64,000 nucleotides of DNA from Hymenobacter mellowenesis (GTDB taxonomy: Bacteria; Bacteroidota; Bacteroidia; Cytophagales; Hymenobacteraceae), in contig NZ_JAUQSX010000009.1 of the NCBI RefSeq assembly GCF_030581005.1, positions 124,001 to 188,000 of the forward strand, written 5' to 3'. The notes under the pieces were generated by a model that saw only the letters and a program-made list of their open reading frames with translations, was not told the DNA's origin and searched no databases. Below are positions 3,055 through 4,890 of this stretch, in pieces (position 1 is the stretch's first letter; every line of letters starts with the position of its first letter). Both the position numbers and the translations under genes were made by a program.

Positions 3055-4890
3055 TCAAGCAAAAGCAGCCTTCACCGCCGCCCGGTATTCCTCAAAAAAC
3101 GCCGCGTTGGTCTTCGAGTCGGTGAAGACTTCCAGAATGGCCGCGCCGGTTTCGGCTGCAAAGAAAACCGGCAGCGCGGCTTCAAGTTCGGCAAAGCTCA
3201 AAACCGGGAAGTAGCGCAGATTGAAATCGCGCGCCGTGTTCTCGGCCGTGAGCAACTGGCGCGTCTCAAAAAACTCGTCCAGCTCCGGCTGTTGGCGCGG
3301 CCCGTCGATGATGCGGAAAATGCCGCCGCCGTGGTTGTTGAACAGCACCACGCGCAGGTTGGGCAGCGGGTAGTTGTGCCAGAAGGCGTTGCGGTCGTAG
3401 AAAAACGCCACGTCGCCGGTGAGCAGCACCACCGGCCGCCCGGGCTGGGCCAGCGCCGCACCCACGGCCGTACTGGTGCAGCCATCGATGCCGCTGGTGC
3501 CGCGGTTGGCGAAGACTTCAATTTGCCGGCCTTGCGGCAGGCCAAGAATGTTGGCGTAGCGCACGGCCATGCTGTTGGCTAAGTGTAGAGCGGTGCTTTC
3601 CAACAGCGCCGCCAGGGCGTGGCGGAAGGCGGAGAATTCGTTGAACGGCTGGCTTTCGTCCGTGAAAAATTGCCTTAGAAACTTAGCGGCAGCAGCATCG
3701 GCATGTTGCCAGGTGACGGGCTGAATCACATTTCGCACTTCTGAATTCGCGCTGGTGACCACCGGATTATCAGTGGCCCCGTTTGGATTCGAACCAAAGT
3801 CCGAATGCTTAGAAAGTATCTGGGGCGCTGAGAGGATGGGATTCGAACCTTTAAAGACAACACCCTCACTGATTTTCAAGACCGACAGTTGCTGAAAGAA
3901 AACCGCCGGTTGCACCCGCACGACCCGCGTCAGCGAACGAAAAGTATCGGCTGCTTCGCCAGCGGCTTGCAGATGCCAGTGCTGCGCCGGGGCCGCATCG
4001 CGCAGAAACAGCTTCAGGCTTTTCGAAATCAGCGACTGGCCAAAGGTGATAAGCAAATCGGGCTTTAGCGCGACTTTGTCATCCTTGCTCAGGCCTGCCA
4101 GGAAAATGTCCTGCCGCTGCACGGCCGACACCTCGCCCACATTGGCAATAATATCGCCCACCACGGGCACCTGCCGGGCCTGCGCAAACTCATAGAGCGC
4201 CGCCAACAGCCCGGGGTTGCTGGGCTGCTGGCCGGCTACCACCACCACGCGGCCCGCCGCCCGCAACTGCTGGCGCAGGTCCAGAATTTCGGCCGGCGAA
4301 AGTGTCGGTTTGGAATCGTGGTTATGCGTAATCTGCACATCCCGCTCATAGACAATTTCCTCCCCCGCCTTCGGATAAAACGGCTCCCGTAGCGGCACAT
4401 TCACCTGCACCGGCCCGGCGGGCGCCGCCTGCGCCAGGTTGATGGCCTCGTTCACGATGCGTGCCGAGTGCCACTTAGCATCGGCGTGCGAGGTATCAAC
4501 CGGAAACTCAAACGCGCCCTTGGCGTGCGCGCCGTAGAGGTTGCGCTGCCGGATAGTCTGCCCGTCGAGTTGGTCTATCCACTCCGGCGGCCGGTCGGCC
4601 GTGAAAATTACCAGCGGAATGTGTTGAAAAAATGCCTCCGCCACTGCCGGCGCGTAGTTCAACCCCGCTGTGCCCGAGGTGCAGACCAGCGCCACCGCCC
4701 GCCGCTGCGCCTGCGCAATCCCCAGGCCGATGAATGCCGCCGCCCGCTCATCGGGCACCACGCGCACCGTCAAATCGGGGTGGCGGGCGAAGGCCAGCGT
4801 GAGCGGCGCCGAGCGCGAGCCCGGCGAAAGCACCACGTCGGTGATGCCGTGCCGGGCGCAGATTTCGGCGATGTTATGAATGGCCTGCAT
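3055..4890 (-). CDS. menD: MenD, SEPHCHC synthase (2-succinyl-5-enolpyruvyl-6-hydroxy-3-cyclohexene-1-carboxylate synthase)
   Basis: ThDP-dependent enzyme joining isochorismate and 2-oxoglutarate. The start chosen is the ATG at 4890, which begins MQAIHNIAEICARHG and leads into the family motif SPGSRSAP (residues 22-29); an upstream extension to 4920 lies in repeat DNA. The ThDP/Mg motif GDVAFFYDRN is near 490-499 and NNHGGGIFRIID near 516-527. At 611 residues it is longer than the usual 550-580. The excess is a segment at about residues 335-385 that does not resemble MenD and is encoded by tRNA-like DNA (see the feature at 3774-3828). The frame stays open through it. Confidence 0.95.
   Translation of the reverse strand: MQAIHNIAEICARHGITDVVLSPGSRSAPLTLAFARHPDLTVRVVPDERAAAFIGLGIAQAQRRAVALVCTSGTAGLNYAPAVAEAFFQHIPLVIFTADRPPEWIDQLDGQTIRQRNLYGAHAKGAFEFPVDTSHADAKWHSARIVNEAINLAQAAPAGPVQVNVPLREPFYPKAGEEIVYERDVQITHNHDSKPTLSPAEILDLRQQLRAAGRVVVVAGQQPSNPGLLAALYEFAQARQVPVVGDIIANVGEVSAVQRQDIFLAGLSKDDKVALKPDLLITFGQSLISKSLKLFLRDAAPAQHWHLQAAGEAADTFRSLTRVVRVQPAVFFQQLSVLKISEGVVFKGSNPILSAPQILSKHSDFGSNPNGATDNPVVTSANSEVRNVIQPVTWQHADAAAAKFLRQFFTDESQPFNEFSAFRHALAALLESTALHLANSMAVRYANILGLPQGRQIEVFANRGTSGIDGCTSTAVGAALAQPGRPVVLLTGDVAFFYDRNAFWHNYPLPNLRVVLFNNHGGGIFRIIDGPRQQPELDEFFETRQLLTAENTARDFNLRYFPVLSFAELEAALPVFFAAETGAAILEVFTDSKTNAAFFEEYRAAVKAAFA
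3774..3828 (-). other. tRNA-Arg(UCU)-like sequence, D arm missing, embedded in frame in menD
   Basis: On the minus strand the order is: GCCCC (3822-3826), anticodon-type arm GATAC-TTTCTAA-GCATT with anticodon TCT, a 5-nt variable loop CGGAC, a perfect T arm TTTGG-TTCGAAT-CCAAA, acceptor 3' strand CGGGGCC and discriminator A. Every spacing from position 27 to 73 is that of a class I tRNA. The GCCCC pairs with GGGGC of the 3' strand; no D arm lies between. A second GGTTCGAATCC T-loop is found 54 nt away (3839-3849). The whole stretch is translated as part of MenD. I infer a tRNA-derived insertion, not a working tRNA gene. Confidence 0.55.

Follow-up and report, generated by a model that had tools for sequence, protein, structure and literature searches.

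Results

The menD gene and its interdomain linker

The window, that is, the whole stretch of 64,000 nucleotides that was analysed, carries a menD gene on its minus strand (Table 1), and its product is the single MenD match in its own genome (G000). It scores 379 bits against NCBIfam TIGR00173, thus meeting the equivalog cut-off of 244, and carries all three of the Pfam TPP domains (N, M_2 and C). The nearest genes are menB and three others that are isochorismate-synthase-like, MenI-like and spermidine-synthase-like. Between the middle and the C-terminal domains lies a hypervariable linker of 71 residues, as against 28 in two of the four nearest relatives. On comparison with 2x7j, the matched stretches leave 76 residues unaligned in this protein and 33 in 2x7j. 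The AlphaFold model of MenD (mean pLDDT 74, pTM 0.77) falls below a pLDDT of 50 at residues 339-390, flanked by helices 328-336 and 394-410; other, shorter stretches of low pLDDT are found at residues 103-113, 314-316 and 521-543. While the low predicted order of the linker is a direct result of the modelling, its description as a disordered, length-tolerant loop is part of the favoured explanation, and it is only inferred, in the absence of expression or activity data, that the protein is made and is active with the long loop.

A preliminary description of this DNA held that residues around 335-385 are unlike the MenD family. The segment is indeed not conserved, and the matches listed for genera g2, g3, g4 and g6 have a gap at residues ~337-392. 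In these four genera (59 of 59 sampled genomes), MenD was matched only in two or three pieces, and in g5 (eight genomes) it was matched in one piece, among the matches listed. One of the eight g5 linkers has an Arg(ccg) piece (82% over 45 nt). The search for inverted repeats between 3300 and 4400, limited to repeats of at least 12 nt, gave one pair (71%, 759 nt apart), situated away from the insert ends.

Two tRNA pieces in the menD frame

The insert contains, on the minus strand, the sequence ATACTTTCTAAGCATTCGGACTTTGGTTCGAATCCAAACGGGGCCA, in which a TCT anticodon loop, a perfect TTTGG/CCAAA T arm, the acceptor strand CGGGGCC and the discriminator A can all be recognized, as described previously. 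Comparison with the genome's own tRNA-Arg(UCU) gave a clear similarity (92% over 48 nt, E 1.4e-12), so that the lack of any tRNA similarity, which would have refuted the preliminary description, can be set aside. Together with the menD frame, which was confirmed to stay open across the insert, this match supports the proposal that a core metabolic enzyme contains an in-frame insert derived from a tRNA. The own tRNA-Arg(tct) gene, which sits in a Ser-Pro-Arg tRNA cluster, agrees with the piece at 27/27 positions from the T stem to the 3' end and at 15/19 positions of the upstream part. The insert is not an unchanged copy of the present-day gene, because the gene has TAG in the menD-equivalent frame where the insert has CAT.

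The second T loop that had been reported nearby also exists, and it proved to be part of a Ser-type tRNA piece; the two copies of GGTTCGAATCC start 54 nt apart. Homologues of the Ser piece in G045 and G020 each gave 84% over 58 nt, and exact matches of 23-24 nt to the region of its 3' end were found in relatives.

Table 1. Features of the menD locus, with positions in the window
Feature	Position	Strand	Details	Support
menD	3055..4890	-	611 aa, frame open throughout	
Hypervariable interdomain linker	3688..3900	-	Residues 331-401, 71 aa	Alignment of 118 genus menD loci
tRNA-Arg(TCT) 3' half	3773..3818	-	tRNA positions 30-75, in menD frame	91% over 46 nt, E 6e-13
T loop of Arg piece, GGTTCGAATCC	3785..3795	-	Frame 0 (GSNP)	
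tRNA-Ser piece	3827..3884	-	Aligned to Ser(tga) positions 29-86	71% over 58 nt, E 3e-6
Ser(gga)-type 3' end (GGTTCGAATCCCATCCTCTCAGC) joined to Ser(tga)-like 5' part	3827..3849	-	Likely mosaic at T arm	
T loop of Ser piece, GGTTCGAATCC	3839..3849	-	Frame 0 (GSNP)	

The notion of a D-armless tRNA that works as such was not borne out. There is no D arm, the tRNA model RF00005 scores 22.5 bits at 3774-3883 (cut-off 29), and ARAGORN calls no tRNA anywhere in the window, so that a functional tRNA gene was rejected. The Rfam scan of 3600-4050 returned only families at chance level, with tRNA absent. The GCCCC strand suggested as the 5' partner of the acceptor can pair, and the Arg piece with this strand folds better than shuffled sequences (-18 kcal/mol, z -2.86). 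However, the T arm does not form when the Arg piece is folded at minimum energy, and a tRNA-shaped RNA was rejected as well. No gain over shuffles was seen for the Ser piece (z 0.0), the Arg piece alone (-0.18) or the whole insert (-0.85); with shuffles equal except for the Arg piece plus GCCCC, selection on RNA structure was also discarded.

tRNA pieces in menD linkers across the genus

MenD was found in 119 of 120 Hymenobacter genomes (G096 had no menD match), and 118 menD loci were read. The G051 gene lies on two contigs and was not counted, its linker being used only in the Ser(gga) comparison described below. Locus L154 (G060) yields no linker, and L150 (G074), which is cut short, was left out of the length counts and kept in the tree and in the BLAST counts. 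In G060 the menD frame breaks near residue 253, and in G074 it ends within the linker at a peptide resembling those of palindromic repeats; either case may reflect real damage or a sequencing error. The 116 usable linkers range from 26 to 123 residues, 32 of them having 26-39, and many contain GSNP or GSIP, which is the translated tRNA T arm.

The linkers were compared by BLAST with 73 tRNAs, namely those of the own genome and those on the loci fetched by then. Because this set is limited, pieces from diverged tRNAs escaped detection, and some labels, Arg(cct) and Met among them, may be only approximate. At E<=1e-2, 1e-3 and 1e-4, tRNA pieces were detected in 40, 36 and 35 of 117 linkers, as compared with 15, 2 and 0 of 234 control segments from the rest of the same genes and, with reversed tRNAs, 2, 1 and 0 of the 117 linkers. 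At 1e-3 there are 52 pieces, all except one in the tRNA sense; 23 linkers have one piece, ten have two and three have three, and different tRNAs stand in tandem at one spot. Ten sense labels were obtained, Ser(tga, gga, gct), Arg(ccg, cct, tct), Lys, Phe, Cys and Met, the antisense piece being Pro. The insert, presented earlier as a single one, is instead one case of a genus-wide, repeatedly altered site.

The tRNA identity of the pieces and their recurrence are near certain. The clearest pieces (G010, G082) reach 96% over 57 nt of tRNA-Ser(tga), with an E-value of 5e-20, and gapless matches of 40-67 nt, with E-values down to 5e-20, come from many separate assemblies, including single-contig ones. 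T-loop motifs do arise by chance, as a search of the own genome for GGTTCGANYCC (68 sites) and for a control motif (16 sites) illustrates. Yet such long gapless matches in so many assemblies leave practically no room for chance resemblance, convergence or an assembly artefact, which the E-values and the controls already refute.

On a MenD tree of 117 rows, calculated without the linker, the presence and absence of 11 labels require a minimum of 41 changes in total. This figure mixes gains, losses and the limits of detection, and the tree is a quick one, with 35 of its 114 inner branches open. The Arg(tct) piece of the own genome was not found in the four nearest relatives, which include the two with the 28-residue linker. 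One could argue that each clade received one ancient insertion, which then changed little and was kept by selection either on the mRNA, with a tRNA-like hairpin or an RNase P/Z signal, or on the GSNP peptide. Such a history would fit the Ser(tga) pieces, whose starts in the linker and in the tRNA are nearly identical in three subclades, the conservation of T loops at synonymous sites, and the better-than-shuffled folding of the Arg piece when the GCCCC strand is included. It does not sit well with the 41 changes, with the short linkers of 26-39 residues, or with the Ser piece, the Arg piece alone and the whole insert all folding like shuffles, and we consider it quite unlikely.

Several linkers hold other sequences as well. 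In one half of the genus, the tRNA pieces of many linkers are followed by a conserved peptide, DATRVA (for example, in L070 and L222). Judged by eye, dispersed palindromic repeats seem to have entered the menD linker of other species, where they read as SPSPLERG-type peptides. One stretch of the G111 linker has 24 matches in G111 (itself included) and 48 in G098.

Reading frame, codons and age

All 39 exact sense T loops in the linkers are in frame 0, reading GSNP or GSIP, and the five exact antisense T loops share one frame; no exact T loop was found in 175.5 kb of menD sequence flanking the linkers. With one mismatch allowed, the linkers contain 66 sense motifs in frame 0, 10 in frame 1 and 20 antisense motifs, the control giving 9. 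By eye, some of the frame-1 motifs are overlaps with antisense motifs or belong to the Ser anticodon region. From the T arm to the 3' end, 37, 31 and 35 of 38 tRNA types are open in frame 0 and in the other two sense frames, respectively. From the anticodon onward, frame 0 is the sole open sense frame in the Ser(tga) and Arg(ccg) variants tested, so that part of the frame-0 bias is forced, and selection alone could explain much of it. Antisense T arms read GFEP in L127, L140, L143, L222 and L224, a weak Pro(tgg) label being present in L127 only.

The GSxP motifs are encoded with GGT.TCG in 39 of 46 cases; 2.9% would be expected from menD codon use, and elsewhere in menD this pair encodes 6 of 75 GS dipeptides. 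Among five of the eight species that carry a Ser(gga) label, 21-24 of its 24 nt are the same, as compared with 57-67% agreement at menD four-fold sites. This similarity, far above that of the four-fold sites, indicates that the pieces are younger than the species splits, have been refreshed, or are held at the nucleotide level.

Source of the pieces

The gene-encoded C74 is kept in 46 of 51 sense pieces and CCA is read in only four, which suggests tRNA genes, and not mature tRNA, as the source. The same 3' ends bear on the possibility that tRNA fragments were reverse-transcribed and inserted as cDNA. It is true that tRNAs are abundant RNAs and that several isoacceptors occur at one site; still, the near-absence of CCA points the other way, as does the match of two further bases (TG) of the 3' flank of the tRNA gene in the Arg piece of the window (one in sixteen by chance). 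Insertion of cDNA thus appears improbable.

The pieces also follow the variants of their hosts. Matching of pieces to the host's own tRNA was better than with shuffled species (p 0.0008 for Ser(tga), 0.0004 for Ser(gga) and <0.0001 for Arg(ccg)), and in comparison with the nearest relative whose tRNA differs, the own tRNA won in 27 cases, lost in 7 and tied in 11. These 45 cases are all the rows scoring at least 17, some without a clear piece of that type, and G108, for which no tRNA-Ser was obtained, is absent from both comparisons. The presence of host-type variants is an observation; as evidence for a local source it is support and not proof, because species are not independent and descent confounds the comparison.

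Some pieces combine two tRNAs. In G107, the own Ser(gga) is matched with 5 mismatches by the 20 nt that precede the T loop (11 for Ser(tga)), whereas the 11 nt that follow the loop match Ser(tga) without any (3 for Ser(gga)); on sequence grounds, this is a clear mosaic that appears to switch at the T arm. The Ser piece of the window is a likely one. Its 11 nt after the T loop show no mismatch to Ser(gga) of G042 and 4 to Ser(tga), and its 20 nt before the loop fit no tRNA well (best Ser(tga), with 11/20 mismatches; a longer 5' part agrees with Ser(tga) at 22/31 positions). The 20 nt before the T loop of G018 likewise fit no tRNA well, and it is not counted as a mosaic; G070 and G090 lean towards Ser(tga) ahead of the loop and towards Ser(gct) behind it, but by one base only. 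Overall, the stretch running from the T arm to the 3' end resembles the tRNA slightly more than the upstream part does (85% versus 81%; closer in 29 of 41 and farther in 12), a weak signal with ascertainment bias, since pieces were found partly by their T arm.

tRNA-like sequences elsewhere in the genomes

Outside the tRNA genes, menD and a YrlA-like array, the T-loop sites of the own genome gave only three 15-nt tRNA matches and a 25-nt tRNA-Glu end. The latter (L200 1403-1427, G000:C20) is a 3'-end copy lying about 180 bases from the gene, the kind of trace expected of an attachment site. A separate 18-nt Arg(tct) end was found in the same genome, and such 3'-end copies of 18-28 nt occur at L244 991-1008 (G000), L240 1204-1231 (G042), L241 1207-1230 (G091) and L243 948-970 (G099), by eye at what is apparently one shared spot; the G000 copy has a small gene on one side and a gene of TonB-receptor type on the other.

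Across the 120 genomes, the Ser peptide matched, at E<0.01, either menD or frames of 31-234 residues, and those of the latter that were compared are tRNA-Ser genes; five matches with E>1 lie in frames of over 1000 residues (50-56% identity). Simple dispersal over the proteome was thus seen neither in the own genome nor, for the Ser peptide only, in the genus.

The array just mentioned is intergenic (G000:C20:23200-24640; L196 5200-6640) and comprises, by eye, about eight units with tRNA-like 3' and 5' parts. Its T-loop cluster was considered as permuted tRNA genes, a candidate that was set aside because the array gave two matches to the YrlA (Y RNA-like) model, at E 1.1e-6 and 2.5e-5, neither of them reaching the gathering score of the family. 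Its neighbours resemble Ro60 and RtcB, by eye only.

Integrative elements whose attachment sites are tRNA 3' ends bring tRNA 3' halves with them, and the pieces at menD might be scars left after the integration and loss of such elements. The fragments do start at the anticodon or at the T arm and reach the 3' end, as is usual for tRNA attachment sites, and the tRNA-Glu and Arg(tct) copies are further 3' ends outside tRNA genes. On the other hand, there is no integrase or remnant among the nearest genes (those farther away in the window were outside the search), no element interrupts any of the 118 menD loci that were read (G051, with its two contigs, cannot be judged), and different tRNAs occur in tandem at a single spot. 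Element scars are therefore unlikely, without being out of the question.

Discussion

The explanation that we favour, and that we consider probable, if only just, is that menD contains a tolerant, disordered loop which was seeded by fragments of tRNA genes and is re-fed by T-arm-guided recombination. The 3' parts of tRNA genes would have seeded the loop, Ser(tga) in one half of the genus and Arg(ccg) in the other. The T-arm sequence of the resident piece, GGTTCGANTCC, is nearly universal and would then provide short homology to the 42 tRNA genes of the cell, and recurrent short-patch recombination or template switching could swap or append other tRNA 3' ends, in sense and in frame, with the result translated as a flexible, GSNP-rich loop. 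The order of seeding, the T-arm-guided step and selective neutrality are all inferred. Only one mosaic, that of G107, is clear on both sides of the T arm, the five exact antisense T arms remain without explanation, and no piece change was caught between near-identical strains. In its stronger form, the proposal is that a protein-coding gene is in ongoing sequence exchange with the tRNA gene set of its cell, the T arm serving as a homology tag. This remains tentative, the evidence being compatible with it without establishing it.

In-frame selfish inserts in bacterial proteins are already known. Rickettsia palindromic elements (RPE) were described as a dispersed repeat with terminal inverted repeats, found in 19 protein reading frames (PMC2229807). 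The menD pieces are similar in being short, hairpin-prone DNA placed in frame at tolerated sites of conserved enzymes, RPE also being intergenic (PMC2229807). However, RPE are described there as one dispersed repeat, whereas menD receives its pieces in a single loop, from what look like many different tRNA genes. Among the properties by which menD could be likened to RPE, in-frame insertion in a conserved protein is present, the frame being open and the insert absent from many relatives; a single repeat family spread over many loci is not, either in the own genome or for the Ser peptide in the 120 genomes. Dispersed palindromic repeats of Hymenobacter itself seem to have entered the same linker, but these are not tRNA-derived.

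The menD pieces share with tRNA 3'-end attachment sites the occurrence of tRNA 3'-half copies outside tRNA genes, and differ in the lack of an integrase among the nearest genes, the several tRNA types in tandem and the reading frame. They also recall gene conversion among tRNA genes, in which tRNA-like sequences are exchanged and host-type variants follow, although here the recipient would be a protein-coding gene. We found no description in the open-access literature of a hot spot fed by tRNA genes; it is this feature, and not in-frame insertion as such, that we have not seen in print.

The menD linkers provide a natural series for studying short ectopic recombination in bacteria. They bear on how non-coding RNA genes turn into protein sequence, and on how a core enzyme tolerates a linker of such variable length. 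If the stronger form of the proposal is true, tRNA genes would act as a reservoir that generates new loop sequences in one enzyme, in frame and specific to each species.
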